From NCBI GenBank assembly GCA_947034885.2, contig OX344749.2, positions 10,121,501 through 10,185,500 of the forward strand: DNA of 64,000 nucleotides, written 5' to 3'. Positions 33,779-58,120 of the stretch are shown one piece after another. A model generated the notes under the pieces. It searched no databases, had not been told where the DNA came from, and saw only the letters and a program-made list of their open reading frames with translations. The translations under genes were made by a program, and so were the position numbers. The DNA is from Thuidium tamariscinum (lineage: Eukaryota > Streptophyta > Bryopsida > Hypnales > Thuidiaceae). Numbering within the stretch: the stretch's first letter is position 1; every line of letters starts with the position of its first letter.

Positions 33779-34478
33779 ATATGATGAGAACGCGTTTCGT
33801 GGCGTGCCGCTCCGTTCTAATCGCAACAATCCAACCAGGGCCCGCCCCGTCCGGTGGTCGGTCGGGGTGGAACCCTAGGGGGCGGGGAAGGGAAGGACCG
33901 TTCTATTGGTTGCTCTCGCAGGCAGACTTTCGAGTTACTTGCCTTTGCTGCAGAGTTTGTTTCACATCAACATTGACACCATCTCCGCCATCGCCGAATG
34001 CCGACGCACGCCTTGTGAATTCTCGGCGTTTGTTTCTCCCTCCTCTTCTCTTCTCCCTCCTCTCTATCTTCCCTTTCTCCTCTGCCCTCCATCCTGGAAC
34101 GTTGCGAAGACGTGATCGTTAGGGTTTGGTGCGGTGGACCGGAGAACCTCGGCGTTCTTATTTTCTCTCTCAGCCCACGACTCGCTTTTCGCTATTGGTA
34201 GCATTCGGAGCGCGCCCGGGTGGAAGGACCACTGCACCGCTTCTTTTTTGGTAGTTGTTCGCTCAATTTTGACAGAGGCGGAGACAACACTCCCCCAGTG
34301 CGGAGTCGAGGGTTTGGTCGGAATCGCGGGCCGCGGAGCTGTAGGGCCTGGTTCGTTTGAAATGTGTGCGAGAGAATTGGTGTAAGATTGGTCGGTGATA
34401 GAGGACGACGTAGGCGGCAGTAGGCAGATCGGTAGATCCTTTCAAAGAAGCGCAAGGGAGGGACGAAAGCACTCATAT
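33779..34478 (+). promoter_or_regulatory. eIF4G promoter and 5' leader (right copy)
   Basis: A sharp change from AT-rich to GC-rich sequence at about 33779 marks the gene's upstream region. A telo-box (TTAGGGTTT, 34119-34127) is present, a motif common in promoters of plant translation-machinery genes. It follows a CT-rich stretch at about 34039-34090 of the type found near plant transcription starts. An in-frame TAA at 34383 precedes the start codon. The exact start of transcription cannot be read from sequence. Confidence 0.6.
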
Positions 34479-37400
34479 ATGTCCCATTACCAAGGCAAGG
34501 GAGACCGGAGCGAGTCACAGCTGAAAAAGGCTGGGAGAGCGGGCGGTGGCGCTGGACATTCGCGAGCCGGTGGCGGACAATCGATTCCTGTGAAGGGCGG
34601 AGGGCCCAGCCCCTTCAACAGCGCGCCCGCTGGTGCGGTTCCGCCGCAGCCGTCTCCCTCTGTTGCATCCGCCGCTCGCCCCACTGCCGTGGCCGCTTCC
34701 ACCAACCGCGGGTAAGCTTTCCTGCACAGACTTGATTGATTGGCGTGGCCCGTGGTTCCTCTTGCCCGCGCGCGCGCGTTCGTTGGACTGATCGCGGGGC
34801 CTTGCGATCGGGTTTCTTTTGGGTTGAATCGAGTGGTGGCCTCGAGGCGTAGTCGCCTTTGGTTTGCGGTAGAATCGTCGTTCCTTCTGGTGATTAGGGT
34901 TCCTCCTCCGGAGTCCGCGGCGTGGTCACGTCGGGAGCTTGCGCGTCTTGCGCTGTAGTCTGGGAGTCGCCCTCTCTCCGTGCTGCTCACCGACAATCCC
35001 AGGTTTTCAAAGGTTCCCGGGGGCGAGCATTCGGGTGGAACCTCCCTTCCGCGCTGGTACGAGGGAAACGTAAACACGGGGCGGTCGCTGGATTGCGTGC
35101 GAGCGTCGATTTAGGGTATGCCTGCCGGGGGAAACGGGGCAGCTTTGACCCACTCCCTGCGTCCTGCGATGGCAGAAGGAATCCGCTGACCTGGGTGTGG
35201 GGCGATCGGACATTTTGCGCGTCGAGAATCGTGGGTAGGGTAGCCGGAAGCCGTGGAGCATGCCTCCATCGCTTGGAAATTAAACTGCACTGTCGTATAC
35301 CCGAGAAGTGTACGCTGGAGCAGACCTATCGGCGTCCTAGACTTTTGCTTGGAAGAACTTAGGGTTGGCATTGCACTGGGGCGTTTCTCCCCTGGTTCGT
35401 CGCTTCTCGTGACTCCCGGTGGTGGTGGGCTTTTTGGCCGGTCGTGGAGACTCTGGAAACTGCCGAGGTGGTGGCGGTGCCGAGAAATTCTAGTTGGTTT
35501 CCAGTGCTCTAGGGCGAAACTATCTTTGGATCAGTTACTCGTTAGGCGATGCAGGGAGGTTTGTTTCTCGTAGGGTCTTGCATGCCACCGGTGCCTCTGT
35601 GTGATTTAAAATCGTATGCCCGTTCGTCCCGGGCAGGTGATCTGTGAGGGAGTAGTGTCCACCAACGGAAAGGGAGATTTCCGTGGAGCACTGTTGGGGC
35701 GTTTCCCTGATCGGACTGCTGTATGTTTTGGAGTCCGTGGTCGCCCTGTCTCCTGCCCCTTGGACCCGTGTTTGGACCTGTGCGGTGGTCCACTTGGAAT
35801 GTGTCCTCACGTGTCATGTTTTGGTATGTGGCAGTGGAAAGCGTGCAAATGGACCTTCTGCCTCTGGAAGAGGCGCAGGGCCTCCGGAGCTCGGTGTCAA
35901 CAACAAAGTGCAGCAGCAGCTGGTCTTACCGCAGCAGCAAGGTGAGCGACCTCTTGCTTTATGCATGCATGTGTTGCGGATGCGTGTGTGGGTTCTCATG
36001 GCAGAACCTACGGTCCGTTGAGCCCGGCGCGTTCCGGCGCGTTGGCTCCGCGCGATCTTTGAGTCTCGACGTCTGTGTCGATTCGTACGGAGGGCATTGG
36101 GTTTGGAATGAGAAGTTCTGATGCCATACAGCAGCTGACGTTGTTTTGGATCGCGGCAGCAGTGCTGCGCCAAGGTGCGGGATCTGCAGACCCAAAGCAA
36201 CACTCGCAGATGGGGGGTCCCCAGCTGAATCCAGACTTGAAGGTCACAATGCCGGGTAGAACGTCTGGAAACGCAGGTTCTGGAGCTCCGGGCGTTTCCA
36301 AGCAACCTCCGACTAGTAAGCCGCCTGCTCCTCCGACAAGCCTGGCCGCTGGGTCGGAAGCTGACACGCCCTCCTGTAAGTCGCCGTTGTCATCTTTTTG
36401 GTGTGTTTGATTCCGCGATGCGTGTGGGTTTTCCCTTTCGCTTGGGCGTTGGGGTCGATGCGACATGAAGGCGTGTTGCATGGAGTGATCTCTTTGTTTC
36501 GAGCACGATCGCTTACAACTGATGTCGCAAAGGAGAACTTGCTTGTTCCCCGGCGTGTTTCTGTGCGGAGGGATCGTCTGCTTCCGCGCCACAGCGATTT
36601 TGACCATTTCAGGGGGGCGTGCTGTTGTTTTTGTTGTGCAGCTGCAGCCCCTCCAGTATCGCAATCGTCGCAGAATGCTTTCGCTTTCCAGTTCGGGAGT
36701 TTTGAGCCCAGCTTTGGTGGCGTTTCGACGAGTGGGAAAGCGTCGGCAACTCCAGTATGCAAAGCGTTCTAATCTACCCCCGTTTCTGTCACTTGCTGGC
36801 CCTTGTCAATGTCAGGTTTTGCGTCAACTAGGGGAGGGATGTTTGTCATTGATGGAAATGGCTGATCTATTGCACCTAGCCTTGCTCGGACGTTGCTGTG
36901 ATTTACTTGTGGTTCAAGTGTGTACCCAGCTTCTGGTAGGAAGTCGGTATTAGCTACAGTAGAAGATTTGGTGTCATCGATGTCGTTTCGACATCATTGC
37001 GTGCATGGGTGTTGAGAATATGCACTTGTGTTTTTGTTTGTGTGCGTAGTATCCATTACGTACGAATTCCGCTCCACCGAATCTGGACGAGCAAAAGCGC
37101 GAACAGGTGAGTGGTGACACTTCCTGTTCGTTTTTAGTATTGTAGAAGATTGTGCGTTGCTGGCAGGAGTTCCGTGATGGATTTTGAAACGAGTGGGTAT
37201 TGATCTTTGGCTTGTTGTGAGCTCAGGCACGTTTTGAACGACCGTTGCCAAGAACGCCGGTGTTGGCATCCGGGCCGCAGCAGATTGCGCAGGTAGTTCG
37301 GGCGCTTGTGCCTGGGTCGGTTTGGCCTCCTGAGTGGGTTCTTGCACGTTGCTGCCAGCCTGAATGTGTGCTCGTGTCGGATGAATGCGTTGTGTGTGTA

Positions 37401-40400
37401 TGTGTGTGAGATGGGGGTGCGGGGACGGGGGTATTCTATTTTGAACAGTGCTCGACCGAGCCTGAATGTCTGCTTGACTGTGTCGTTCTCACGGACGGGA
37501 TTCGCCGGTGGCTTTGGGGCAAGGGTGGTCATTGTGTGGGGGGCGATAATGACACGATGTTCTTTTCTTCTTACGTTTGTTGTGTCGAATTGGAGAATAC
37601 GAGTTTGGGGACCATGTTGGGTGCTAACTTGTGTTGCTTGCCATGACGGTGACAGGTTGGTGTAAGAAATGTGGTTGGTGCTAGTGACCAACAGCCTGCA
37701 GCAGCGATGGTGCAACATTTGCAAGCGGGTGTGGGTTCTCAAGGGCCAGCACCGGTGGGAACCACGGCTCAAGCTCATCCTCCCCAGCAATTAGGGCAGG
37801 CTTCCCAGTATTCGCAGCATCCCCAACCCAGCAACCTGCACATGTCAGGCCCACACATGCTGCAGGTATTGCCAGAGGCCCTCTTGAATGTTTCACGTAG
37901 TTGAATAGAGCCCCTTGCTTGTCGAGCGGAAGCACCGGTCTGTCTGGTTCGCAGACGGGGTCGGAGTCGGGGTTTTAGGTCGAAGTCGATGGAAGTGCGG
38001 AGAGGGGTTGGCCTTTTCTCTTCCTCGTCGATTTGTCGATGGAGCAAGTGATTTCCTCGGTCGGAAACAAAGTCTTTAGAATCTTCTAGGCCGAGCCGAG
38101 AATGCATGGACAGCTGGATGGTGTGTGTATGCGGTCCGGTAGTTTTCGTCACGGGTAGGGTCTTGATTGCGTCGACGTTTTAACAGTGTGGTGCGACCTC
38201 TCCTTCACAGATTGCCCAAATGCAACAACAGCAACAGCAACAGCAACAACAGCACGCCCTGGCACACCAACACCAACATCAACAGCAGCAGCAGCAGCTG
38301 CAACAACAGCAGCAGGCGATGCCGCAGCAGCAGGGGATGGTGCCGGAAAGGCTTACCCAAGTCATGAAGTATCCGCCGCCGCCACCTATGATGGGGGGGC
38401 CCCATCACAATCCACAAATGCTAGGTACTCCCATTGGTAGCCAGTTGGCTAATCCATTGTCTGCGCAAGCTATGCCTCCGATGGCGCATCAGCTAGGACC
38501 CAATATGGGTGGCCAGATCCCCGGGGGTATGTCCGTACCCTATGGGGCTCCTCCTCCCACCACTCAGTTTATGACACAAAAGCCAAAGAGCAGGGCCATA
38601 AAAATCGTGGATCCACACACTCACGAGGAACTGAAACTGGATTCAGTAAAGAAGGAGAGTGTAGAGATTGTGGCTCCATCTGGTCTGGGGAGTGCAGGTA
38701 GGGTTTCTAGCAATGGTCTGATTCAAGCGCGAGCCCCCGTGGGATACAGTCCCCCACCTCACCTGGGTCCTTATTATTTTCAGCCTGCGCCCGTGTACCA
38801 GCAGCCCGGGCTTACGAAGGCGGGCTTTTCCGGCGCGCCTATTTCTAGCTCTCCTTCTGTGAGGTTCAACAACTTCACTCCCCCCCATCCCGGGCCAGGT
38901 GTGACTTTTGGTCACCCGGGAAGCGGCCCAGTGCCACCTGTTCCGAAAGTTTCCCCTCCACTGGGGTCTGTGGCTCCGCTCGGGTCTGGGACTCCAGGCC
39001 CCGGCCCTGTGGAGATGTTGAGCGCGCCTCCCGTGGCTGGGGTGGCGGTGGGGACGCCTTCTGTTCCGGTTCCAGTTTCGGGTATTCCTGCTCCACCTGT
39101 GATTGCCAACCCTAGAGCCAATCCACCTCCGCTGGGGCTGAACCCTCCGATCATCTCGAACGGGAGGCCGCCCAGCTTGAGCGTGCCTCCCGTTTCCCCT
39201 CCCGCGCCGCTGACCCCGAGCTCTGTGCTTCCATCGCCGAATTCGTTGACAGCATTTACGTTTGGTGACGTGGAAGCATCGGGTTCCGCCCCGGTCGCCG
39301 CCAGTGAAGCCAGTAGCGAAGGGCCACTGAATGGTGCGAATGGGCATGCGTCGGCAGGAGTAGGTTCTACCAGTGCCAGTGTTGGTCCTTCCCATGCTGG
39401 CGTAGTAGGCAGCCTAACCTCGCCGGGGTCTTCCGCCCCTGTGATGAATCGGCCGAGTGTGACTGTCATTCCTCCTAAGCAGGTAACGGGTTCTTCCAAT
39501 GCCAGTGGTGTCAGTCCGAGAGTTGTGACTCCTCCTGGCACAGGCGGTGCAGGAAATTTTGGCGAGAAAGTGAAAGTGGAAGCTGCAAAGACGACCGGGA
39601 ATTCGAACTTGAGGAAGAATAGCAAGAAGGAAAGGCAACGGCAGCAGCAGCAGCAGCAACAACAACAAGCCCATCCAGCAAGCTATCAAGGCTTTGAAAG
39701 TGAGAAGAATGCAGACCAGGTGGTTGCCGCGGGTGGGCCGAACCTGACGGAGAAGACTCACTTGGCAGGTTCAGGTGTTCCCGGCAGCCACAAACCAGGC
39801 TTGCAAAGGACTCAATCTGGAGCGCATGGCAGCGGTACTGTGTATGCGCCCGTGAGGAAGGCGGAAGAGTCGAAGCCAAGCAGTACGAAGGCTGGTAGCA
39901 AACTGTCTCATCCAGGTATGCATGGTTTCCGTGAGGGCAGAGGCGTGATTGCAGGTCGAGTGCCTGTGGATGTTTGGGACTTCGGTCACGTGGAGTCTGG
40001 TTCCCCTTTCCCCTTTGACGCGCACTCTAGCGGGTCGGTGCAGGGGCTTGGCGACGCCGTAGAATGATTTTTTGTTTGTTGAGGTCCTCACACCTCGTCG
40101 TCCTTTCTCAGATACGAGCTCGGAGAACGCGTCGTCCGAAGCGACTGGAGGGATTGGTGCAGCCAAAGAGGAAAGCGAGTTCGGTGCCGTGCAGAGCCTC
40201 CCAGGCCGCGGGAAGGAAGGAAGGTCTTTGGAGTCGGACAGCTCTTTGAAAACAGATACTTCCGTGGTGATTTCAGACGGGTCCTCTGGATCGACTGGTC
40301 ATTCTTCCTTGCTTGCGAAGGACGAACCCACAGAGCCCGCGGCAGAAGAGCGGAGGACTTCGGAAGAGGTCGTTGCGGAAGACGCAAGCCTTTCTGTAAA

Positions 40401-43400
40401 GTCGACCTCAGACAGCTCGAGCCTTGGACATGAGACCGAGGACGTCGAGGTGGAGCGTGACACCGTTCCATCGGATCCAAAACCTTCGAAGGCCTTGCCG
40501 GTTCACGACAGGGAAGTCTCGAGGGAGCCCGATTCTACGGCGTCTGAGATTGTTGAGAAGAATGCCGAGGTTGTTGAGCCGGTCAGTCTCCGAGCATCGG
40601 AGTCTGGGGATGACGCAGCAGCCGACAAAACCGTGGAAGGCGTAGCTTTTCCTGTTTCGGGCGTAGAGGGAGAGCCATCCATGGTCGAAGACACCCACGC
40701 AGTGACAGAGTCGCTGGAGTCGTTGACTTCGTTACCGGAGGGGCACACGGCAGGTGGTCTCAGTAAGGAATCTGTAGGGATCGAAGCAGCTGCAGCGGAG
40801 GAGTTCAGTATCTCGTCCGCCGATGTGCAAGCAGTGGAGGTGACTGACGCGTCGGAGGAACCGATTATCCGGAGCGATCATCCCCCTGGATTGATTCTTG
40901 GGAGTCCTTCGCATCCGGACTTGGACGCGTCTGCGTCCGAGGACAAGCGGGTGTTTCCGCCCGAGGAGTCTGCGGCTGTTCCGTCTGTCTCGAGCGAGGA
41001 GGTTCCGAAGGCTGTGGAGTTTGTTTCGGCGGAGAATGGTTCGCAGTCCGACTCTTCGACGGGTGGAGCACCGGACCAGGAGGGTCCCAGCGTTGTCGAT
41101 TTGTCGGGCCCGGTGGAGAGCGCAGTGGTTTCGATTGAAAAGGAGGAGGTGAAAGTGAGACCGTTGGAACAGGCGGAATCCACTGCCAGCAATTCTTATA
41201 AATCTGAGGCGAACGCCACGTCCGTGGTCTCTGAATCGGAATCCGACGTGGAGCTTCCTTCGTTGTTGAGCAGCACTTCTGGCATTTCGACTACGGAAGT
41301 GAGCGAGGCTGTGCAGATCTTGGAGAGCGAAACGGATGCAGTGGAAGCTCGAATCGTCGGGAACCCGAATTCTGGTCAGGAGGGTGTGAAAGTGGTTAGC
41401 AACAAGAAGAAGAAGAAAAAGGAGTTTCTTGCGCGAGCCGATGCCGCGGGTAACACGGCCGATCTGTACAACGCATACAAGGTTCCCGAAGAGAAGAAGT
41501 CCGTGGAGGTGAAGCGAACGGAGGTCTCTGGGACGGGTTCTTCGGGCAGCGATGCGAGGGACCCCGTTGCGATACTGGACAAGTCTTTGCCGAAGGAGGT
41601 GGATGACTGGGAAGATGCTGCTGAGCTGCCAACGCCAAGTATATCGGTCGTTCATCCCGTGGATGGTGGTGATCGAAAATACACCCGTGATTTTCTAATC
41701 ACCTTCAGGGACCAGAATAGGGAGTTTCCTGTGAGCTTCGAAATCCGGCACGATATCGCGGAACTGCTCTTGGACCGAGACCGATTGGGGGTGGAAGGCC
41801 TGACGAGCCCTGCCCGGAATCTGGACCGGCAGGCCAGTGGCGGGGGGCAACGAGGAGACCGGAGAGGAGGCGGCATGCAGCCGGGAGCCGAGGAGGATCG
41901 TTGGATCAGACAACCGGGTCTGGTTCCTTCCCCTGGAAGGAATCAGCCTGGGGATGCGCGCATGGACATGTCCATGCAAGGTGGTTTCCGTCCCATGCAA
42001 CCGGGTTTGATCACCCAAGTTCCGCAGCAATGGCCTGGCCAGATGAACCAAGGTGGATTTCCAGGTTTGATTCCACGGGGTCCCGGGAATGCGCCGCTGC
42101 CCCATTTCATGACGCCGGGTCCTCCTGGTCGCAGCCCGAACGGTGTGGATGGGGACCGGTGGCTCAGACAACCCATGGCCGGCGGAAAGGGTCCCGGTCT
42201 GATTCCGTCCCCGCGAACTCCTCTCCCTGCCATTCACAGGGCGGAGAATAGGTACGAGGTGGGTAAGGTGTCCGACGAGGAGCAAGCGAAGCAGAGGCTG
42301 GTGAAGGGGATCTTGAACAAGCTGACGCCGCAGAATTTCGACAAACTGTTCGTTCAGGTTCAGGAAGCGAACATCGACTCCGCCACGACGCTGACGGGCG
42401 TGATATCGCAGATCTTTGACAAAGCGCTGATGGAACCGACCTTTTGTGAGATGTATGCGCAATTCTGCGTGAAGCTTGCCGCTGACTTACCGGAGTTCAC
42501 GGAGAACGACGAGAAGATCACTTTCAAGCGCGTTTTGTTGAACAAGTGCCAGGAGGAATTTGAGCGGGGGGAAAGGGAACAAGAGGAAGCGGAGAAGGAT
42601 GAAGAAGAGCACGTGGAAGTGAAGATGACAGCGGAAGAGCGGGAGGATAAACGTCTGAAGGCGCGGAGGAGGATGTTAGGAAACATCCGTTTCATCGGTG
42701 AGCTGTACAAGAAGGCCATGCTGACGGAGAGGATCATGCACGAATGCATCAAGAAGTTGCTGGGTGAATACCAGAATCCCGACGAGGAAGATGTGGAGGC
42801 TCTGTGCAAGTTGATGAGCACCATCGGGCTGATCATCGATCATCCGAAAGCTAAAGTGCACATCGACGCCTACTTCCGGCGGATGGAATCCCTGTCGAAC
42901 AACATGAAGCTTTCGTCCCGTCTGCGATTTATGTTGAAGGATTGTATCGAGCTTCGTAGAAACGACTGGCAGGAGAGAAGGAAGGTGGACGGTCCGAAGA
43001 AGATCGACGAGGTGCACCGAGATGCCGTCCAAGAACGGCAGCAAGCTGCGCGTGGGGCGGATCGCTTGGGACGCGGCCCCAGTATGGGGGGAGGGTCGTC
43101 TCGGGGAAGGATGGGAGCCGGTCCCGAGTTTGGCATGCGAGGTCCTCCATCTCCCATGTATTCTCCCGGTCCGATGGGAGCCGGTAAGCGTCCGATGCCT
43201 CTGGGATCGTTTCCTCCGATGATCTTGACGCATGTTGCAATGGATACCTTTTCGCCGATCGTTCTCTTGCCTTCTTGCATTTGGTCAAATAGGAAGGTTC
43301 GGAACTGGACGTGGTTTGCGATGTTGCGTAGTCGGTTTGAATGCGTTGGCGAGATCTTCGGATTGCGGTTGTCGTTTCCGTGCATCCCGATCTGTTGCAA

Positions 43401-46400
43401 GCCTGTGATTGGAATTCGATGTAGACGTTCTAGGAACGGTCCTACCTGGGGGCTCGTGTCATCCACGTTTTGGAGACCTGCACGTGGCCTTTCTTTGTCG
43501 TCCGTGCCGTGTGGAGTGAAGCAAACCTTAGCAAAGCAAAGTGGAGTGACGTTGTGCGAATGTTTGTCGTGCAGGACCACCAATGAATAGTATGCGAAGG
43601 GCGCCTTCTCCACAAGCGGGGATGCGCGGTGGGGGTAGTTTCGTCCAGGACGTGAGGATGGAGGATCGATCGCTTCCGATGGACGTTCGACCGGTGCCAA
43701 TGCCGCTGTCTCAAAGAGGTGGTGACGAAGGCAGCATCACTCTAGGCCCCCAAGGCGGATTGGGTCGGGTGGGTGTACGACAGCAACCGTTCAGTAGCGG
43801 GCGGAGTGCGCCGTCGGATGCGGCGCCCACCGAGATGCGTCGGTTGAGTTCGGGCCCTGTCTTGAGTTTCGGTCAAGAGAGATCGCATTTCGGGGGCGAA
43901 CTTCCGATGCGACCGTCTAGCGCAGAGAGGCCTCGATCGGCGGAGAGGCCGCTCCTGGACAGACCGATGGGAGCCGACCGGGTGAGCCCGGGTGTGCGAG
44001 ACTCGCGAAGCACGCCGGAACAGCAGAGAGTGGCCGATCGGTCCACCGCATCGACCGCGGCTCCCAGCACTTATCAGGCGCAGCGAAACGAGTCGACGCC
44101 ACCTTTGGTGTCCCCTCGTCCATCCACCGCCCCGCCCCTTTTGAGCGGAGACGAGCTTAGGAAGAAGTGGGAATCGACTATAAACGAATACTACAGGTGA
44201 GGTGTTTTTTGGCGAGAGTGTGTGTGGACTAGCCACTTGGTTTACGAATATGCAGGGGTTTGGGAGACGAAACCATATTGGGGTCGGCGATAACGAGGGA
44301 GCTGTTCGAGGTATCGTCTTTGGTAGATGCAGTCTTTGTCTGTGGCGTGATTATGTTTGTGCAGACCCGGACGCACAGCTGTGTAGTGCTTCCTCTGGCA
44401 CTCACCAGGATAGCGAAGTCAGTCGGATGATTTTCAATATTGCATGTAGTTGGTGAAATATTCGGCTGGATCGTGGGTATTGAAAAGGCGTGTTGAACTG
44501 GGGCCATGCAGTGTGGCGGACTTGAAGGAAGCGACACTGTGCGTGGAGGAGCTGGGTGCTTCCAACCACCACTCTGATATGGTGTGCGCGTGGGTATCGG
44601 AGTCTCTTGAGGCGAAAGACAGGGAAAGAGACCTGCTTGTAAAGTTACTTGTACATCTGCACGGAAGCGAGCCTCCTCTTTTGTCTCACAATCAGCTGGA
44701 GAAGGGGTACGATTTTTTCTCGGGTCGCTTGGGGATAGCCCTCTCGCTTTGTTTTCCGTGGATGCGGATTCGTTTTGTATGCTTGATGAAGCTGATTTGA
44801 GACTCGTGGTCTGAATTTGCCGTTGCCGTTTCCGTTTCCTGTTTTGGGGCGCAGGATGGAGCGTTTGCTGTCAAGATTCGTAGACACAGTAGTGGACGTC
44901 CCCAAGGCTCCCGAATTTTTGGGGTTCCTGTTAGGTAGATTAGTTTCGGTTGGGGTATTTACTTTATTGGGTGTAGGCAACTTATTAGAAACGGCTGGTG
45001 AAAGTCCCGGAGAAGTTCGGGAGGAGGGGCTCGCGTTGCGCATTGTAGGCTCCGTGCTGGACACGTACCGGAAGGAGAAGGGCGAAGAGCAGCTGTTGGG
45101 CGCTTACAAGAGTTCCGGTCTGGACGTGGAGAACTTTGTGTCTCCTTCGGAGAAGAACCGGAGTGCGAAGCTTGAGGCGTTTCTGACGACGAAGAACTTG
45201 CAGAAGCTGCTTCCGGTGGGATAAATGCTGCCCCTGTTTGTCGCAAACACCTGGTTTGTCTTTACTTTGGGACAGCGAGGGGTGGTAGAGTAGGGCCATG
45301 TTTTGTTTGATGAGGGCCGCGGTGTAAGTGAACTAGTGATCTAGTTGATTCCGTCTCGGAGATGATGGAGCTGATGTTTTTACTCCTTGTTTTTTACCAG
45401 ATGTTACCTGTAGAGACTCACGTTAGAGACTCGCTTGACAGGAAAGAGCCCATACTGGATCTTGTGAAGTGGATCGAGGTAATTGGACTGGACCCACCCT
45501 CTTTCGTTTGGTGTCGGAGTTGCCGAGTCGTGCAGAGTGTCGTAGACGATTATTTGGGGAGTAGTTATTGGTCGTTTGGTCTGTATTTTTGGATTTTCAG
45601 CAGTTGCATACTGTGGGCGCCTTGCAAGAGCCAGATGTGAGTCATGTAGTCAGGTGACAGTGGAGCGGCGTGTCTGCTCATTCCTTTTGTATTGTTTTGT
45701 TTTCCTGTCAGAAAAATGTCCCTAGCGACTCGTGGGACCCTTCTTTCTTACGAATGATCATGACGCAAGTTTTGAGACATGCGGTGGCGGAGCCCCGCTC
45801 AGTTGATTTTACGGTACGTGGGCGAGTTTCTGTTTCGTCGGCGGGGTTTGTCTTGTGCCTGTGTTTTGTGTTGCAAGCTGCAGGGGAGTATTAGAGATGC
45901 ACGCGGGTTGAGAGTGAGTGACTGAGGGTTTCTACTTTGGCACGTGAATGCCAAGATATACTTTCTTTGTTTGCTTCTATGTTTGTGGCGTCTGTCAGCG
46001 GTCGGTCGTACTTTGCGGGCTGTAAAGCTGCGTGTGCGTTTGGTCTCGGGAGTTTAGTGGATGGAGCGAAGGGGTGCTGGAGTACGGATCTGCAGGATGA
46101 TCTAGCCAATACTGTTGTGCACACTTGGATTGGCGCTGCATGGTGATCGATCTGATTGTGTTGTTGGCTGCTTGTCCCGCAGCAACCTAGTGTGAAGGTG
46201 GACACGAAGACGTATGCTCCCCTGTTGAAGAAGTGCGCTTCTGGGCAGGGTAAAGCATCTTCGGCCAATCAGCTGCAATGTGAGATTCCTCTGCCTTTTG
46301 GCATCCTCGGGTTTAGTATTTTCGGGGGGTGATTTGAATGAGCGGGGTTGTCCAGCGTCACGGTCTGCACCCGGGATCGGGTCGTAGGAGGGCCGAACCA

Positions 46401-47613
46401 GTTCTTTGCAGCAGTCGGAGTGGACCCCGTTCGTTTGAATGGCTTTGTCCTGGGTAGCCTCTGCTGGACCCATGGCAGCCGTGACCGCATGTGCTGACCG
46501 CCCCAGCGGGGGTGGTGTGGCATTTGGCGTCACCCGTGCGTGCGGGTGCAGGTTCTGACGAGGATATTGTGTGCGTGCAGATATCATTGCAGTCCAATTA
46601 TTTGCCAACGAGCATGGCCATCCGCAAGGTCTGATGCACAAGTTATTTGAAAACTTTTACAGGGAAGAGGTACATGAGCTCCTACTCGCCACCGTTGCAT
46701 GGTCTCGTCGTTGTTAGTGGAGATTGTGTTTATCATTGCTTCAGGGGGCTCATGGCCGACACGTGTTAGTTTCTGTTTTTGTTTTCTGTGAGTCTTTGCA
46801 TGGAGGTGGAGTTCGGTGATTTCTGTGCTCTCATCTGTTTATGAATGAGATTTTTCGACCAAATTAGGTTTTGGGCGTAGGGGTCTAGAAGTTTTGAGAT
46901 GCAAGTCTCATGATTTTGAGCTGGTGTCTGGAGTGTCTGGAGTCTTTGGTCCGACCGGATGTCTTAGAGATCGCTTATCTGGCTGTGTCCGCGTGTGCAT
47001 AAGTTTTTTACTACGAGTGTGTTCCCCTCTTATGATTTCAGCCTCTGCCTGGATAGTGGTTTCCGGTTCGTTGTTCGTTTTTACTCTCGTGACCCAATGC
47101 TCCTATTTATATTCGTCTTTTCCAGACTTTGATGTATGAATGGATTGCGTGGTGTGTTTGGTCAGGTAATCTCCGAGAGGGCGTACTTCACTTGGCAGGA
47201 TGACGTTAACGATTCCACACCAGGAAGAGACAAGGTGAATTCGCACTGTCCTTGAGTTTTGAGGGCTTGAGAGACGTATGAGTGAGTTTGGTCCTAACCA
47301 TTAAGGCGTTTCCTTGGTTATTCCTGGGTACATCCACCGTTTGTGTGCAAGCTGTGATCCGTCATGGTGGAGGTCCTGAGGTGGTAAGAACATATGCAAG
47401 CCACAGCGCGGGCATTACTAGTTGTTGTTGCTACTGGAGTGCGGGGGATGGGACGGGGGTTTCTGTGGGCTTGCCGTTTCTGCAATGGGATGATGCGGGT
47501 GCTGAGAAGCTTGGGTTTGGTGTTTGTGGATTGAGCAGGCCATCAGGGAGGTGAGCAATTGGTTGACGTGGTTGGCCGAGGCTCCGGAAGAAGTAGAGGA
47601 TGAAGAAGATTGA
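34479..47613 (+). CDS. eIF4G: Eukaryotic translation initiation factor 4G, plant type, with C-terminal W2 domain (18 exons)
   Basis: Scaffold of the cap-binding eIF4F complex in the cytosol, bridging eIF4E, eIF4A and eIF3. Exons read from GT-AG sites: 34479-34711, 35835-35941, 36160-36375, 36642-36754, 37050-37106, 37227-37292, 37656-37865, 38211-39915, 40112-43183, 43575-44196, 44512-44706, 44855-45215, 45401-45478, 45712-45813, 46183-46279, 46581-46669, 47166-47234, 47539-47613. They sum to 7467 nt (2488 aa) with all phases matching. The ATG at 34479 is the first in frame after a TAA at 34383 and starts MSHYQGKGDRSE, like plant eIF4G. The segment RTNSAPPNLDEQKREQ is also plant-like. A polyQ tract follows 38220. 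The motif YTRDFLI (about residue 1426) fits the eIF4E-binding YxxxxL-hydrophobic pattern. MIF4G spans roughly 1625-1855, MA3 2115-2319 and W2 2320-2488. Angiosperm eIF4G is shorter and, as far as I know, ends after MA3. Exons 1-8 lie in the palindrome arm. Confidence 0.93.
38220..38342 (+). repeat. Polyglutamine-coding repeat in eIF4G exon 8
   Basis: CAG/CAA runs code for long glutamine stretches mixed with His and Ala. The tract is also present in the left copy (about 1306-1428, minus strand). Similar Q-rich stretches are common in plant eIF4G N-terminal regions. Confidence 0.85.
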
Positions 47614-49050
47614 TTCATGTAACATCGATAGAGGTGGTGTCGACTCTTTCACTCTTCGCCTTTTAGAGGAGAGTGTCCTGGAAATGGGCAAGCGGATTTG
47701 TGTACAGCAATGGAAGAGACTGAATGTCATAGGTTACAACTTATCCAATTTTTCATTGATTACCTCTATAAAATTTGTGGGCGCGTAGTCCCCTTGAGCC
47801 GATGTGTCTGCGAACCGGGGATGTTGGTACGCTATATATGTCTGTCGTGGGCAATCACGTGTGTTGGTGGTGCATGTGTGTGCATGGATCTTCGGTTGGG
47901 GTAAAAATCGGGTTGAATGCGACTCTTCGGAGAAGCTATCTCAGAACGTAGAGGTACGTCGATGGTCCAATTCGGGATGCGTTCATGATTTGCCGACCGC
48001 AGCAATGTCTTCCCTTGCGAGCAGCGCGGTCGTAGCCCACTGGTATAGGAATGTGAATGGCAAATCAAGTGCGTACGCGGCATGATATCAAGACATCGTT
48101 ATGCAGACGAGACTCGGGAGGGTTCCCTCTGAGCCCACCGTCTGTCGCTCTCTTTCGTCCGCCAGCACGGTCGTCACGTGTATGCGGCACTGATTTCTAC
48201 TCGATGCATTCAGAGCATTTTGGAATACATTCTTGCATTCTTTCGAATGGTGAACACTAGCGCGGACGGTTCCTGTCTGTTCGTTCCGTATTACGGGCCA
48301 CTGCTCGGTGTACTTCGATCGTTGCCGAAAGAATTCGAGGCGTGCAACCCTTGTGAATTATCCGTCGGTGGTTGTATGGACGCGTTCCGTGCACCGGCGC
48401 CTCCTCGAAGGCCTCCGAGTGAGGGAAGCATGCACCCTCATCCGTACCCGAAGGACTTTGGAGGGGATGCACCTAGACTTTGCGTGACGGTGAGGTAACT
48501 ACACCTAAAATTGTGCGAATGAGCAATTCTGCATAGTTTCCATTATTATTTTGGGAACTCTCTTTGGGTACGTGTTGGTAGTCGAAACTAGTTTCCAGGT
48601 TCCTTTGGAATTGGTTTTTTGGACACTGTATGAGTTAACTAGGAATCTTTGAAGTGCTGGAAAGAGGCGTTCCTAAAATCGATCATGAACAATGACAGTA
48701 CATTTTAGGCAAGAGTCTGGAGTGTTTTCTAGAAAATGTGATTTTAGGTGTGGTTACCTTCTCAGTTATTGTGGAAGAAGTACCCTGTTCACAATATTTG
48801 TCTAAAAAAAATTAGCATGTCAGTTTTTTGTAATGTTATGTCCTATTTAGTTTTCTTCTTTGGGCTGATTTCCCCTCTGTCTCAGCATTGTGTTTGGGGT
48901 TTGTGGTACATTTTGTCTTGGTGATTGATTTCGTTTTCCATGTGTACCTGGGAGCCTTTAGAGTCGTTGCAGAGCAGGGAGTCTATACTTCATGTAATTG
49001 CATGCTTTTCGAAGTGTTTCCCAAATGATGGGTCTACTTCTCAAGCTTAA
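47614..49050. other. eIF4G 3' region and downstream intergenic DNA
   Basis: The first part should be the eIF4G 3' UTR; a plausible AT-rich polyadenylation area is at about 47740-47775 (TATAAAATTT). A GC-richer stretch to about 48495 contains short open frames without recognisable domains. After that the sequence turns AT-rich and I see nothing further up to the element at 49054. Confidence 0.5.
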
Positions 49051-49053
49051 CCC

Positions 49054-50019
49054 TTAACCCCTCACCACCCAAGGTCCAACCATGCTTAAAAACTGCCTGC
49101 CTTTGCAAGTCTGAAAAGTCAAAATTAGAGTAAGGTATGAAGATCTCAACCGTACAATTTTATAGTGTGCATCTTTTAAATGGTTTGGAACAAATTTGGG
49201 GTCATTTGACCGTATAGATTGAAAGATTATAATGTTTTAGTGTTCAAAAAAGGTGCTGAACTTTTCTTAAAAACACATTTGGAAGTGAAATTGGATTTCT
49301 AAACCAACTCAAATGAAAAAACATTAAACTACAAAGTGATTCAAAATCATAATATAAACACTGAGGTGGAAAAAAATTCATAAAAATCACTCATTATGTT
49401 TGAAAAATGGATTTGAAATGTCAAAAAACAGTGAAAAAAGATAAAAATCACGATTGTGGCTGAAGCTCCTTCTACCAAAATGCTTCTCAGTCACTCAAAA
49501 CGTCTTCGATGGATCTGAAATTTTAGCCACACAGAATAGATTAGTAAGTGAAACTTTTCCAACAAATATTATTGAAAAGAAATCATGTATGAAGAAGTTA
49601 TGAGCCACCAAAGTTGACTGAAATGCAAAAATGTCTAGATTTTGAACTTCGAATTGCTCCCAAACATTCAAAACAACTTGGATAGGCATGAAAATTTTAG
49701 CACAATAACTAGACCTTGAGGGGAACAAATAACAACAAATTTCATCAAAAGAAAAGATTTTATGAAAAAGATACAATCCCCCAAAGTTGCAGCAGTCACA
49801 ATGCAGTGTGCTGCATCCAAATGAACCTATGAACTTTGAATGGCTCTCAAAAACTCAATATGTCTTATATTGATTTGAAATTTATTCTATAAGAACTAGA
49901 TTAGAATGCGCAACTTTTCCAACAAGTTTCAATGAATTTGGACATTGGATGCAAAAGTTACAACACTTTGAGTCTGACTCCATGGACACTTTTGGTCCTC
50001 TTGGGCGGTGAGGGGTTAA
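49054..50019. mobile_element. TIR element bounded by TTAA, with internal ~180-bp tandem repeats
   Basis: Left end TTAACCCCTCACCACCCAA (49054-49072) and right end TTGGGCGGTGAGGGGTTAA (50001-50019) are inverted repeats with one mismatch. Both are bounded by TTAA, which could be a target duplication. Inside are three degenerate units of roughly 180 bp (about 49475-49640, 49655-49800, 49830-49980), sharing GATTTGAAATTTTAG-like, CAACTTTTCCAACAA-like and AAAAGTTATGAGCC-like words. No transposase is present. TTAA duplication suggests piggyBac-like mobility, but the class is not established. Confidence 0.55.
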
Positions 50020-50186
50020 AGGACAGACTGACTGGAAATCATCTATTTTCAAATCTTGGGGTCACTGGTTTAGAATGCACTCATTTTTAGTCGAAGCAAC
50101 TGTAGATTTTTTCCCTTCGCACACGAAGTTGGGAGGATGTATAGTTGCCCTCTATCCGACACAAGAGAATTGCTTGTCACATTCAT

Positions 50187-50310
50187 TAGACACTAAACAT
50201 CTACGGCATTTAAGAAACATGCAATCCTTACAACAAAACAAAACATGGATGACAACATATCTACAGCATTTAAGACACAAGCAATCCTTACAATAAAAGG
50301 TGGATGACAA
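50187..50310. repeat. Two-copy tandem repeat
   Basis: The phrase ACATCTACGGCATTTAAGAA, followed by GCAATCCTTACAA and a GGATGACAA word, recurs about 67 bp later with small changes. Confidence 0.7.
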
Positions 50311-51902
50311 TCAGCGCTTTTTGTGTGGGCACTGTAGGGCTAGATTGCACCATGTCAGAATAATTGTCTTTTTTTGCCAAATAAAAGTAATGTTTCTTTG
50401 TCAAATTTTTTTGAAAATATAGATGAAGTTGCCAAGTTTGGATGAAGAAGTGTATGAATATGATGGAAAAGTGTATTTAGGTCCAAAAGATAGATGAATG
50501 TAGAAATACAATGCTTCACCAAATTTGAACTAATCGCCATCTAGGCCCTTTCTCAAAAAGTAAATAAAAAGGGTTGATGACAACATTGACAACCTTGAGG
50601 CCTTGTTGATTTAGGCAAACAACAATATTAATTTATTGATTAGTGAGACCCCACAACCCCATTGCAGCCAAAGCCTATTTAAGTAGTTATTTTTACGGAT
50701 ATAGTTGTAGATAGGATTTTAAGACTACAATCTATGCCGTAGTCCTTGGAAAGTTCAAATGCTTGAAAAAGAGTGGGTACCAAATTTATTTATTTTTTAA
50801 ATGTAGTCTACTATCAATACGTATAGCTTGTATACTAAGCCTCAAGATTTTGTTTTTGTTTTTGTTTGTACACCAGAAAATGTACTTTTATATTGGGGTT
50901 GATTCTAGAAATTTCTTCACAGCAGCTACAATTGTTATGTTCTTGTATGGGATGATGATCACCTTAGTATAATAACAAGCTTATTTACAATTTTGACGTG
51001 CAATTTGTCAATGTATACAAGCTAATGAATAAATACATCATGTAATTTTGCAATTCCAATCATGTACATGGCCTATTGAAGAAGCTTAACTTTTCGATTG
51101 TGGTCCAACTCTCTATGGCAAGTAGAGTCATTGTTGTCGACCGTTTGTATTATTGTCTAGTTTATAGTTTTTTATTGTGATATGGAGGGAACCGTACAAA
51201 TTATCAAGAAAATCAAGGCATTCCTTAGTAATTTCAAATGATTTGGCTTGAAATGATTGCTATGTTTAGCTATAGAATTGGGGAGTAGGGTTCATTGACT
51301 TTGAGGAGGCCCTTAATGTTCTTATGAGAATGTGAATAATGTGATACATAGCTTCAATTACTTCAAACCTTCAAGTTTTTTTAGGATTCCATCTACTTCA
51401 AATCCATCTTGAAAGTAAAGAAAATTGGTTCGCAAAAAGTGGATGGTTTCTTACACTCAAGTTTGTATAGCACCCAAAGGTAGTAGATTATGGAATAGGA
51501 TTTTTTAAGCTTGGCAAAAACTTTATTAGTCCTAAGATTTTTTGCAACCCGCCATTTAATGGAGATGAAGTGCTCATGCTCCATCTATAGTGGACCATGC
51601 AAGTTATATTCCAAACTTTTGTATTTTTAAGATAGAAAACTACAACACTCGTGACTAATGGTCTACAACAAATTGGAGATATTTGAGCCATTGGCACCAA
51701 GTCATTTCGGAGATGGGAAATCATGTAAAAGAACATTGGAGTGTTGGTTGAGAACGGCAATTTTTCCAAAGAAATAATGAGCTTTGTACCCTTTGACTAG
51801 AGGCATATACTTTCAATTGCAAAGCATTATTAGGGAATATTTAGGGGCTTTACAAGACCACAAGTTTTCTTGAGTCTGTAGATTGTACTGCAGGGACTTT
51901 GT
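50311..51902. other. AT-rich intergenic stretch, no gene identified
   Basis: Only short frames occur, including two overlapping minus-strand frames at 51393-51769 that I could not assign to a family. No splice-linked exons or RNA genes were seen. Confidence 0.45.
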
Positions 51903-51968
51903 GAGGCAGTGACTGCCTCTTTTGAGCTCATTGTCATTGTGACAAACTGTGTCACAATGAGCTCAAAA
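51903..51968. repeat. Two adjacent hairpins
   Basis: GAGGCAGTGACTGCCTC (51903-51919) is a near-perfect palindrome. It abuts a second, longer inverted repeat at 51920-51968, with TTTTGAGCTCATTGT paired to ACAATGAGCTCAAAA. A related but non-palindromic word, CAGTGACTGTCTCTTTTC, recurs at about 52467. Confidence 0.75.
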
Positions 51969-52214
51969 ACTATAAAAATTTAAAAATTTAGCACCTCCCC
52001 CTCAGCCCCTCTCAATTTGATTTAATGATTTAAACATTAAATTTTAAATATTAAACTTTTTAAGCCCCCTCCCCTCCCAATTTGATATAAATATTATATT
52101 TAAAATTTTAAAGTTTTTTTAACTTGTAAATCCCCCTTCTCCCCACCCCTTCTTATAATTCTCAAAGGGTGGGCTTGGAGACAAAGGATATGGGATAAAT
52201 GATACAGTATACAA

Positions 52215-52360
52215 TATTTTTGTATCCATATATCCGTATTCGTATTCCTACCATATCCATATTCAGTACTAGTACTAATATTTTGTATCCGTATCCAATA
52301 CCCGTATCTAATATCCATATTCAGTATCCGTATCTGTATGCGGTATCTATATCAGTATCT
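52215..52360. repeat. Degenerate hexanucleotide microsatellite
   Basis: About 145 bp of varied ATCCGT/ATCCAT/GTATCT units, clearly a decayed six-base tandem repeat. Confidence 0.85.
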
Positions 52361-55300
52361 CACGATTGTTGATTTTTCTTAGAGGGGGGTTGGGATTTTT
52401 TTTTATTCAAATCCAACAACTGCTGATTTTTCTGATGAGGGGGGGTTGGAAAATTAATCAAATAACAGTGACTGTCTCTTTTCATCACATTGTACCAACG
52501 TGCACAATCAGTAGCTGGGTTTAATTAAGATACTACCACATCACAAAATAATTAATTTTTTAAATATTTATTTTGTATCTATTTTGAAGGAAAAAATGTT
52601 GAATCAATTTTAGGTTTCTTAATACTGTTTGAAATTTCTGAGAATAATATTTTCTTAATTTTTGAAATATTCAAATATTTTGCCTTTATGGACTAATTTA
52701 TTGTTTTAAGACAACAGAGGGTATATGGAAGGGATCACCATTGAAATAGCCTTTCTTTGCCTTGAAAACTCCTTTAATGGTGAGGTAAGCTAAATGAGTT
52801 TTTAGAGTTCTTCTTTGATCTAGATGATTCCTTTCCGTCATTAATTCTATACAAATCTCAACAATTCTAAGGGGTGATTGCAAGAAAGACTTGGACTATT
52901 TGTTGCATTTTCAAGAGGACTTAGGATTTTTTTTTGAAGTACTTTATAATTAGAAAACTAATGTTTTTTAGATTTGAAAAATATGATTAATGTATACACC
53001 TCTAAGACGAAGGTTTTCACTAAAGGAAATGGATGGAAATTTTTTCTAAGTAGGAGAACTTGGAAAGTGCCAAATCTCAAGAAAATAGGTACTTTGATTT
53101 AGAAATTAGTTTAAAATAGTATAAATAAGTAAATACAAAAATAAATACTAGACATTTGTAACAACTTTATGGTAATGGTCAATCACCAACAAACCCATGA
53201 AAATAATATTTCATATGTTTCAAAATGCAAGCAAAAAGAATCTCACTTTGTAGACTTCTACACCACATAGAATTAACTTTTTTTTTAAATTCCTTTGATG
53301 AAAAGTTGTATTTCTATAGTAGAAAGCACTCTACAAAATTTGACAATGTAACTTTTCAAAAAAGGTACTCAATAGTACTAGAAACCTCCAAATTGGAAAG
53401 TGTGAAATACGTCTTAGGCCTATTTTTGGATAGTAAATAACTTTTGAAAATTACTTAAAAATTTAGGGAAGTTGTATGATAGTCATCAGTACCTTTTCTA
53501 AAAATCTTAGGTCATTTGGAGTGAAAATACAAAAGTTATGGCCAAGAAATAGATCAGTACATATTGTGTGACGCAAAATAGGACAAGTATTTCTTAGAAT
53601 TGCCCTAACCACAATTGTTAGGCATAGCCCAAGTCCTCTCACTAGAACCCTTAGAGTTGTGTGCTAGGAGTGGGGTGGGTTGGGATGCTAGTTGTTTTTT
53701 ATTCAACATAAAATGATTCCATAGACCCTTTCAAAGACTTATGGGAGCTAGAGAGAAGGAAGGGGTTTACTATCATGCAAAGGGTTCTACTTCTCCTATC
53801 TCTATTCTACCATGTTTAGCGTGACTCCTTAATTTTTGTAGGCCAAACCTTTGAATATTTTTTCAAGTGTTTTGAGAACTAAACTATATATACAACCACT
53901 ACACGAAATAAATCCCTTGCTAGGGACTTGGATTTGACACCCAACTACAACTTTTCCCATCCTTAGGACTTCAAAGCTTTGTCATCCAATATAACTTACT
54001 AATACCACTTTCTAAACACAAGAAGGTTAGTGTAGATGGACAAATCTAAGGATAATCATGACTTGAGATACCATAGTTAGTACAAACCTTTGGGTTAGTA
54101 AACACTTAAGACTCACAAACTAGAGGCTTTTCAAAGCGGCACTGCCATATCATATTGGAAGTTAGTCTAGAACTACTACAAAAGACAACAAAACTCTACT
54201 TATATAACTCTCCACAGGAGTCTCTACTTAAAGTACTTCAACAAGGTTATTAATCAAGGCTAGATCAACAAGGTTTGTTAATAAAACATGACTCAATTCT
54301 CCAAATGACTCAACTAAATTGTTACTTACATGAACAAATTTCAAATATCTCACCCATGAAGTTAAAACTACAAACATCAAGTAACATATACACAAGAAGG
54401 GCTCTCAACCTCAATGGTGTGAAAAATTCAATGAATGGACAACAAAGGCCCTAAAAGTACCATTAAAGGTTTCTTGGACTAAAATGCTAAGAATTCTCAT
54501 GTTTATTGGACTCAATGGTCCTACAAATAAAAGTGCAAATAAAAAAATAGAGGGTCTGAAGGGAAAATGAATGCCCTTTAATACTCACACCAAGAACTCC
54601 ACCCTTTGTTCTCTACCTAAATTTTCTAGGTATTTTATAGAATTATAGTGAACTGATAGCCCAACATATTGCTAGTTGAAAGAAATACATTCAATCCACA
54701 AATATTCCAATTTTAAGTTGTAAGCTAAAATCTTCAATTTTTTACATTGTACATGGCACCCCAATCTTATGCATTGACCCCTAAAGTTTTTAAATCTAGA
54801 AGTCTCTACAACAAACTCTTGAGATTTAGAATAAGCTAGGATGACTCCAATTCTTGTCATCATTTTCTAAAACAATTTTTTTGAAGATAAAAAATCACAT
54901 TAGCATTTTAGAAATATAATTCTCATTTCAATAATTGCCTAGGAGAAAAAGTTATGCCACTCTAAGTTGAAAATGTAGTTTGAGGGGTAGCACTAAAAAA
55001 ATCATAGTAACTTGAAATTTTTTTTAAAAAAAAATCTTTAAAATTATATATTTGTCTACGTGTGAAGCTTTTTAAAATTCTATTTAGACTATTCTACATT
55101 GAAAAAATTATGGAAAATCTCTTTTGTTTATGGAATTATATTATCTTCTAAAAAAATAACTTTTACAACTTATTTTTGAAAAATTATTAGAGTAGGCTAA
55201 GTTTGCTTGCTAGTACAATCTCACTATTAGAAATTTAGGATCATTGAATGTCTTTTAATTACATTTTAGAGCTATTAACAATTTAGTTTTTTGTCCAATA

Positions 55301-55549
55301 TTGAAACTAATTCAACTTAATAATTTTTAATGAGTGAAATTCAATTTATTTTTCTTGAATTTTTTTGTAGACTTTCAACTTGATTTTTCAACATAAAAAA
55401 CTAGAAATTCAAATTTAATTTTGCAAAAAAATTTGTTTAGAAAAAATTGAAATTTGATGAAATTTATTCCTAGAAATCTTCTTTTGGCTTCCAAGTTTCT
55501 TCACAAAGATTCAAAAGTACTCCTAATGACATACCTAAGAAAATTAATA
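52361..55549. other. AT-rich intergenic stretch, no gene identified
   Basis: Repeat-like AT-rich DNA with only short frames. Words resembling the ~180-bp unit of the 49-50 kb element (AAAAGTTATGGCCAAGAAAT) appear near 53535, so related repeat material may be scattered here. Confidence 0.45.
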
Positions 55550-56350
55550 AAGATTCTTGGCACCTTGGTATGATTTTTAGAATCCAACACACCTTTCTAT
55601 GGCACTAAGAGACTTTAACAAACAATCAAAAGTCTCTTAAATGACACCCACAAATAATAAAGGGAGAATCCTTTAGCTCCTAGAAATGACTTTCAAGATT
55701 TGAGGATTCTTTAATTTCACCAAGAGTCTATTAAATGATGTTGGTACCAATGGACTCTACTTTATTTTAGAATCACTTATGCTAAAAAATAGTTGTTTAG
55801 ATATGAGGTTTGAATGAAGCTTTCTTTGGTACCAAGAGTTTATTTAATGACAATCCTAACATAGTAGGAAAAAAAAATTCAAGACGAGTCCTTTAGTACT
55901 AAAAAAATGGCTCCCCTAATTTGAAGAGTCTTATATAGAACCAAGACTCTTATATAAAATCAAAAGTCTACCTAGTGACATATAAAAAAATATAAAGGAG
56001 AGCCCTTAGGCACAAAAGAGGGCTCATTGGATCCAATGATGAGCCTTCTTTGGGTGCAAAGGAAGGCTTCCTCGAATCAAAGAAGCCTTTTTTAGAAGAA
56101 CCTTTATGCACCAAGGAAGGGCTGCTCAAACTAGGAGAGACTTATTGACAAAGTCCTTTGGCACCAAGAAAGGCTCCACGTATTCTAGGAGCCTTCCTTG
56201 GAGAGCCATTTGGCATCAAGAAAGGGCTCTTGGAATTCAGAGAGCCATCCTTTAGAGAGCCCTTTGGTAGCTAAGAAAGGTTCTTGATATTGAAGATTGA
56301 GGAGCTTTGTTTAGGAGAATAATTTGGCACCAAAGAAGGGCTCCTTGGCC
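55550..56350. repeat. Degenerate minisatellite
   Basis: Loose tandem units of roughly 60-100 bp built around CCTTTGGCACCAAGAAAGG and its variants, often with inverted halves (GAGCC and GGCTC). Order is clearest at 55990-56350. The units are too diverged to count exactly. Confidence 0.7.
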
Positions 56351-56500
56351 ATTTTTACATCAAAACCATTTTTACATGAAAAAACATTTTTATATTAAAA
56401 AACCATTTTTATATTAAAAGACCATTTATCTGTTAAAAACCATTTTCATATAAAAAACTATTTTCAAATAAAAAATGATTTGTAAACAAAAAATGATTCT
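56351..56500. repeat. Short AT-rich tandem repeat
   Basis: Repeats of about 20 bp similar to AAAAACCATTTTTATATTA, directly following the minisatellite. Confidence 0.8.
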
Positions 56501-58120
56501 TTTTAATTTCTAAAAGTAAAGGATGTGATTACCTTTAAAGTTAGACATATTCATTAGACTTGTATTTTTAAAGTTATAGTGGACAACAAGATAGGAAATA
56601 GGACTAATGTTTCTTATTCGGTTTCTTAAAATGACCCCAAGAGCTTTTTTTGTATTCTTGAATTCAAAACTTGTATTATTTTGGTATTTGTTTTGTTTTT
56701 GAATTATATTGGCAATCCTTTTGTTAGCCTTTGTTTACTTTTTTTTCCTTCTTTCGTACATGTCATTGCAATATGGCTTCTAATTTATTGCACTTTCATA
56801 ACAATAGAAAGATGAGAAAAAAATTACATGTAAGTTGTATACGGTACCTTCAAATTTAAACACACACACACCCTCTCTCTAATAATTACTAGTATAGTGA
56901 AAATAATCACAATTATTTAATATTGTTTTAAAATATATTAGATTTTATAATCCATTCTACAAGGTAAATATCCCCACAATATAGGACATTATTGCATGTG
57001 TCTGCAAAATCTAAAAGGGAGTGTTGTCCCTTTAAGAAATCTACACTTGTATATACACTTGTAATCATATTTATATTTATATCCCTTCATATTATATATA
57101 GAGAGAGATACACATACCATATTTGTACTTGTACTAATATACATGTGTTTTTTCACAACTCTTGTTTTTTACTAACAATGGTTGTTGTTTTCATTGAATA
57201 AGGTTGGAAACTTAGAATGTCAACAATTTGTATGTACACAATTAAAACATGAAAATGTATGAGAGTTTAGACTTGGTTTGGGGACACCAAGAGATCATAC
57301 TATTAAAATTCATAATTTATTCATATTGTATGCACATAATGCATATTAAGAATGTTAGAATTTCTTTTTGTTACAAATAAGATCTAGTCAAATAATTTAT
57401 ATTCAATAATAATAATGCTTTGTAATAATCACCAACAATTATAGGTTTGCATACATTATTGTGTATCATGATACCATGACACTAGCTTGAGAATACCAAA
57501 AGGTGGCATGTCATGCGTACTAGTCATTTTTGTAATTATATTGCGAATTTGTGACCCCTTATTATGACCCACTTTGCTCTTGCCATAGTAGTTATTTATA
57601 CTATGGAACTAATATATCTGGGAGACCTAGATTATAATGTGCAAATTTTTTCACATTCTACTATCTTCTCAAAGATACTAGCCAACCCTATTCTATAAAA
57701 TCACCACCCATCTTTGCTTAAAAAACAAAAGAAAAGGTACATAAATTTAAATACAAAGACAAACATGATGTATATGGATACAAATACAAATACAAATAAA
57801 ATACAAGTGTGAATATGAGTGCACATTTGTATCTCTTTATTGTATGTCGAAATAAAGATTCCATAATTTCAAATATTGGAACTTTGGAAGTCAAGATATT
57901 TAAAAAATTCAAGATATGAAACAACATGTGTAATTGTGCATAAATATGAATAAAAAAGAATTTCACACTATAATGGCTTAAAAATGAACAAAATTATTAC
58001 ACAATTATGAAATGGTATTTACTACATATCTACATATTAATACAAAGTGTTACACTTGCAAACAAATTGTAGAATGATCTTAACCTATATGTATAAATAG
58101 TTGTTTTAAAAGTACTATAC
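56501..58120. other. AT-rich intergenic DNA downstream of the P450 gene
   Basis: Low-GC sequence with short microsatellite patches (CA and CT runs near 56865-56880). It should include the P450 3' UTR next to 58120. No other gene was recognised. Confidence 0.5.

Follow-up and report, generated by a model that had tools for sequence, protein, structure and literature searches.

Metazoan eIF4G1 carries three HEAT domains in the order MIF4G-MA3-W2, and animal eIF4G and DAP5 (also called eIF4G2 or NAT1) bind the kinase Mnk via two aromatic/acidic boxes (AA-boxes) (PMC4402527, PMC9977666). Plant eIF4G is reported without W2, the third HEAT domain (PMC3352336, PMC3850090), and without the Mnk-binding domain (PMC3359775). 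This agrees with the preliminary description of the present locus, which had stated that eIF4G of flowering plants ends at or before MA3. We analysed a stretch of 64,000 nucleotides from Thuidium tamariscinum (contig OX344749.2, positions 10,121,501 to 10,185,500), called the window below, and report that it contains a plant-type eIF4G gene in which a W2 domain very probably forms the C-terminal part. No title or abstract opening among the literature matches listed mentioned W2 on plant eIF4G, which is no proof, as most subscription journals lie outside the coverage; PMC5790229 covers PABP gene numbers and does not contain the word HEAT. Genome databases may already carry W2-bearing plant eIF4G, unremarked.

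The eIF4G gene comprises 16 exons on the + strand, from the ATG at 36108 to the TGA ending at 47613, which give 7179 nt and 2392 residues in one unbroken frame. Its introns are all GT-AG (15 of 15), with lengths of 120-496 bp. The upstream exons were picked by eye from reading frames and splice sites, and splice sites were scored with weight matrices trained on the gene's other introns. The features are as follows.

36108-36375, 36642-36754, 37050-37106, 37227-37292 and 37656-37865, + strand: 5′ exons 1 to 5 (open spliced frame, GT-AG)
within exon 37050-37106, + strand: 4G-PN1-like motif YPLRTNSAPPNLDEQKREQ (consensus PARTSAPPNxDEQKRxQ, PMC3352336)
38211-39915, + strand: exon 6, carrying the 4G-PN2-like motif IKIVDPHTHEELKLD (consensus VKITxPxTHEELxLD, PMC3352336)
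40112-43183, + strand: exon 7, with the putative eIF4E-binding site RKYTRDFLITF, MIF4G/HEAT-1 and the H1-CT motif RRKVDGPKKIDEVHRDA (Pfam, motifs)
43575-44196, 44512-44706 and 44855-45215, + strand: linker and MA3/HEAT-2 exons (Pfam MA3)
45216-45400, + strand: MA3-W2 intron, phase 0, 185 bp, donor CCG/GTGGGA, acceptor TTTTTTACCAG/A (open spliced frame)
45401-45478, + strand: W2 exon 1 (MLPVETHVRDSLDRKEPILDLVKWIE; open spliced frame)
45712-45813, + strand: W2 exon 2 (KNVPSDSWDPSFLRMIMTQVLRHAVAEPRSVDFT; open spliced frame)
46183-46279, + strand: W2 exon 3 (open spliced frame)
46581-46669, + strand: W2 exon 4, start of AA-box 1 (LFENFYREE; open spliced frame, box named after the general motif and PMC4402527)
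47166-47234, + strand: W2 exon 5 (ISERAYFTWQDD...; open frame, Pfam W2)
47539-47613, + strand: W2 exon 6, AA-box 2 (WLTWLAEAPEEVEDEED), stop TGA 47611-47613 (open frame, Pfam W2)

The W2 domain itself is real. In the 873-residue stretch from MIF4G to the end of the protein, Pfam detected MIF4G with 174.8 bits (176 in a separate run), MA3 with 58.2 (E 9.9e-16, cut-off 23.2) and W2 with 51.7, all above the curated cut-offs. When the 289-aa C-terminal model was searched, W2 (PF02020) scored 53.7 bits (E 2.2e-14) for a cut-off of 30, its residues 210-287 covering positions 2-79 of the 79 in the profile. This was the comparison by which the preliminary description had wanted its domain call checked, and its account of the exons held as well: the coordinates of the six in-phase W2 exons agree with ours, their joins are GT-AG, a single frame stays open to the TGA at 47611-47613, and all five W2 peptides that it had quoted are found in the translation. 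Codon usage, trained on ten upstream exons, favoured the reading frame of the W2 exons, with +0.07 per codon; the two alternative forward frames scored −0.45 and −0.43, the reverse-strand frames −0.19 to −0.33, and the introns of the gene −0.28 to −0.34. The fraction of G or C at third codon positions (GC3) was 0.57 in the W2 exons versus 0.60 in the upstream exons. An NCBIfam profile search of W2 matched no family. Searches of two contig collections, described as prokaryotic and viral in content, yielded 57 pattern matches for the 289-aa C-terminus in genome contigs and 28 for the 169-aa W2 in viral contigs, none of them confirmed, which is uninformative on plants.

The W2 part was not selected out of many possible models, as few junction combinations stay open: within 8 bases or less around each boundary of the W2 region, 6 combinations were open through the final stop, and the 2 of these that use GT donors only differ from each other by a single Q. 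Elsewhere in the gene, two acceptors scored poorly, 37656 in front of exon 5 (−4.96) and 44512 in the MA3 region (−2.66). An extra exon at 44256-44310 was tried and dropped, because the direct join of 44196 to 44512 reads a continuous MA3 sequence, INEYYSVADLKEATLCVEEL, despite the poor acceptor. Measured in 2-kb steps, GC content is 51-58% in the eIF4G region with its introns (34001-48000) and 29-43% in the flanks (6001-34000 and 48001-64000).

The body of the protein is of plant type, as the preliminary description had proposed: besides MIF4G and MA3 above cut-off, it has 4G-PN1-like, 4G-PN2-like and H1-CT motifs. The first two were defined as plant motifs by Patrick and Browning (2012; PMC3352336). 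Compared by eye to these consensus sequences, YPLRTNSAPPNLDEQKREQ has one substitution and one additional residue, and IKIVDPHTHEELKLD two substitutions. The plant H1-CT is printed as RRVEGPKKI(D/E)EVHRDA, with a shared core RRx5KxIxExHxxA (PMC3352336); RRKVDGPKKIDEVHRDA fits the core exactly, and differs from the printed plant form by one additional residue and a change of E to D. Similarity to the eIF4E-binding site KKYSRDFLLx8LPxxF is partial, RKYTRDFLITFRDQNREFPVSF keeping the spacing and differing at four places, with R for K, T for S, I for L and FP for LP. PN1-like motifs without PN2 are reported from Chlamydomonas and Volvox, PN2-like motifs without PN1 from Ostreococcus and Micromonas, and both together from land plants (PMC3352336). 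Their joint presence here points to a streptophyte eIF4G, although not strictly, since the green-plant ancestor may have carried both (PMC3352336). The PN1-like, PN2-like and H1-CT motifs, MIF4G and MA3 are shared with the Arabidopsis and wheat type of eIF4G, whose eIF4E site is matched in part. The difference lies at the other end: the published form stops at MA3, whereas the moss gene model continues into W2, the 51.7-bit match lying downstream of MA3.

W2 domains are found in several initiation factors, and their families were compared using a PDB sequence search with the moss W2, which matched 14 distinct sequences at E up to 1. DAP5 scored highest (59.7 and 57.1 bits, E 3.5e-15), followed by eIF4G1 (32.0 and 31.8 bits, E 1.1e-6), eIF2B-epsilon (at most 21.9 bits, E 0.0014) and eIF5 (at most 18.9 bits, E 0.012). 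As human DAP5 and human eIF4G1 score 37.2 bits against each other, less than the 59.7 bits between the plant W2 and DAP5, the plant W2 falls well within the eIF4G/DAP5 range. In shuffled local alignments its Z was 29.2 with DAP5, 19.2 with eIF4G1, 12.7 with eIF2B-epsilon, and 4.9 and 8.4 with two eIF5 sequences. Identity was 39/133 (29%) with human DAP5, an alignment matched in quality by none of 500 shuffles, and slightly higher, 41/128 (32%), with human eIF4G1. In an unrooted tree, the split between plant W2, DAP5 and eIF4G1 on one side and eIF2B-epsilon and the two eIF5 on the other received 92% ultrafast bootstrap, and the grouping of plant W2 with DAP5 79%. By these comparisons, the W2 is nearest the eIF4G/DAP5 type. 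The eIF4G-type assignment of the preliminary description thus stands as far as eIF5 and eIF2B-epsilon are concerned, both of which are disfavoured as a source by PDB bits, Z and tree, and of the independent genes that it had named as fatal to its reading, such as a BZW or an eIF5 relative, the eIF5 case is disfavoured (18.9 bits at most, against 59.7 for DAP5).

Some results weigh against so clear an assignment. The short eIF4G1 construct 1ug3 scored 20.1 bits, beneath some eIF2B-epsilon entries, and the plant W2 aligns with eIF2B-epsilon, too, at Z 12.7. Human eIF4G1 itself reached a Z of 14.3 against human eIF5 and of 12.7 against eIF2B-epsilon, near its 19.2 with the plant W2, meaning that the W2 families are not far apart. 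The tree held six sequences, namely the W2 of the window, four of the 14 PDB matches and 2iu1, with no 5MP/BZW, and its references were trimmed to the printed stretches, some without their ends. No 5MP/BZW chain occurs among the 14 matched PDB sequences either, the presence of a 5MP W2 in the PDB being unverified.

Resemblance to each animal protein is incomplete. Metazoan eIF4G1 has the same domain order, and its W2 could be aligned over 128 residues, whereas the moss protein has the plant N-terminal motifs and the Mnk partner is reported missing from plants. DAP5 provides the top-scoring W2 match and shares WLTWL near the end, but it is without the eIF4E-binding N-terminus (PMC4402527) that the moss protein appears to have.

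The joining of MA3 to W2 by splicing of 45216-45400 was inferred from genomic DNA, and the junction has features that make it less secure. Donor 45216 scores 4.76, the fourth lowest of 15 and on the weak side, a higher score (5.30) is reached by an intronic GT at 45324, and the first W2 exon opens with an in-frame ATG at 45401. If the intron is kept, an in-frame TAA (45222-45224) is reached two codons into it and the protein ends with NLQKLLPVG. This stop and the weak donor would suit a gene with two isoforms, many transcripts ending in the retained intron and W2 being added only via regulated splicing. We consider such an arrangement unlikely, though not negligibly so. Acceptor 45401, with a score of 7.75, is the best AG within 45230-45470; AATAAA, ATTAAA and AATATA are absent from the MA3-W2 intron, as they are from the 487 bases past the W2 stop (TGTAA occurs once in each); and plain retention would leave five downstream introns, making the transcript a likely target of decay. 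The in-frame ATG makes an independent, small W2-only gene starting at 45401 formally possible, but this is hardly credible: a good acceptor stands immediately before the ATG, the upstream donor is in phase, the spacing from the TAA (45224) to the ATG is only 176 bp, and the W2 is nearest eIF4G/DAP5. The W2 very probably forms the end of this eIF4G gene.

CBP80 is the nuclear cap-binding subunit, and we liken it to the moss protein by description only. It is reported to have the order MIF4G-MA3-W2, and an ancestor with this order has been argued from eIF4G and CBP80 (PMC9467303). A W2-bearing plant eIF4G fits such an ancestor, in which case W2 would have been lost within the plant lineage. The locus would encode the large plant-type eIF4G that a streptophyte, likely a non-flowering land plant, has with the full three-HEAT order MIF4G-MA3-W2, and its W2 would be the old third HEAT of eIF4G, kept here and lost on the lineage to flowering plants. 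As read from the gene, the non-flowering assignment derives from the W2 and its published absence in flowering plants, and so adds no separate evidence. We favour ancestral retention, which appears likely. Alternatively, the W2 may have been lost in the plant ancestor and fused again onto eIF4G, its source being a 5MP/BZW, eIF5 or eIF2B-epsilon gene or an animal-type gene acquired by transfer. In favour of this, published plant eIF4G is described without such a domain (PMC3352336, PMC3850090, PMC3359775). The W2 is confined to its own exons behind a phase-0 intron, like a shuffled module, and the 5MP HEAT profile gives a match, below cut-off, on the end of MA3 adjoining W2 (17.5 bits versus 26.5, E 0.0034; 15.9 bits in the longer protein); 5MP likewise has an MA3-like domain ahead of its W2 (PMC12224906). 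A regain is nevertheless quite improbable in our view, as the closest PDB matches are DAP5 and eIF4G1, the W2 stands after MA3, in its proposed ancestral place, and it is split by five introns (233-496 bp, 46-60% GC) similar to the other ten of the gene (120-391 bp, 45-57% GC).

Under ancestral retention, the MA3-W2 intron suggests how the domain could have disappeared: its retention puts a stop just past MA3, which is a simple route for W2 loss. Flowering-plant eIF4G ends near this retained-intron stop. Loss in flowering plants may thus have occurred by truncation at this intron, the stop two codons in being still visible.

As for function, AA-boxes are visible by eye in the moss W2, LFENFYREEVISERAYFTWQDD (box 1) and WLTWLAEAPEEVEDEED (box 2), and the domain has a net charge of −10 over 169 aa, or −12 from AA-box 1 to the end; the trimmed human DAP5 and eIF4G1 W2 stretches, of an extent unequal to that of the plant W2, have −5 and −7. 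Since Mnk attaches to such boxes in animal eIF4G and DAP5 (PMC4402527), the W2 could be supposed to recruit an eIF4E-phosphorylating kinase, as was mooted in the preliminary description, which spoke of "a kinase or eIF partner". Neither an Mnk orthologue nor an equivalent of eIF4E Ser-209 is reported from plants (PMC3359775), so that Mnk recruitment is unlikely and recruitment of an eIF4E-phosphorylating kinase very improbable; of the two partners mentioned, an initiation factor is the one we deem likelier. DAP5 W2 binds eIF2-beta via its AA-boxes (PMC4402527, PMC9977666), and in eIF5, eIF2B-epsilon and 5MP it is the C-terminal W2 that binds the tail of eIF2-beta, which carries three lysine boxes (PMC12224906). 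With Mnk reported missing, eIF2-beta becomes the likeliest partner. The moss W2 may then act as an acidic docking surface, through its AA-boxes, for the lysine-rich eIF2-beta tail or another 43S factor, which would link eIF4F to the 43S complex at a second point. A point to the contrary is that binding of eIF2-beta by human eIF4G-type W2 is reported to be absent (PMC4402527, PMC9977666), and we give docking to eIF2-beta, the likeliest single role, somewhat less than an even chance.

Taken as a whole, the explanation by a three-HEAT plant eIF4G with a retained W2 that docks onto the 43S complex is held with moderate confidence. Its fuller form is tentative: an ancestral W2 kept in the eIF4G of early streptophytes or non-flowering plants would dock eIF2-beta and so unite a cap-side and a DAP5-like contact in one protein, with later loss in flowering plants. 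In the published view, plant eIF4G has two HEAT domains, and the third is linked with animals and with Mnk. If the explanation is true, a three-HEAT scaffold was present in the plant lineage and W2 was lost later, and W2 need not have begun as a kinase-recruiting domain.

The window also contains a large inverted repeat, 1-19258 and 20390-39647, with arms of 19,258 bp that differ by 1 mismatch and no gaps, and a spacer of 1131 bp. The W2 exons fall outside it. As one arm reaches base 1 of the window, the left edge carries, on its minus strand, a partial, head-to-head second eIF4G 5′ half. The repeat reflects a palindromic duplication of very recent date or else a fold-back artefact of the assembly.

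Rfam gave no match in the window, and ARAGORN no tRNA. Pfam was run on ten of the 129 intergenic and flanking open reading frames (at least 55 aa), and two matches were found. One, at 18654-18977, close to the centre of the palindrome, was to DUF4216, with 30.6 bits, exactly the Pfam cut-off; this domain is known from plant CACTA-type transposons. The other was a piece of a plant-type cytochrome P450 lying on the − strand at 58124-60941. Its pieces at 60561-60941 and 58124-58753 scored 51.4 and 199.6 bits, and the middle piece, 59052-59693, 20.2 bits, under the cut-off of 22.8. Both neighbours are consistent with a land plant, and the best PDB match of the last P450 piece was ferruginol synthase (8.3e-49).

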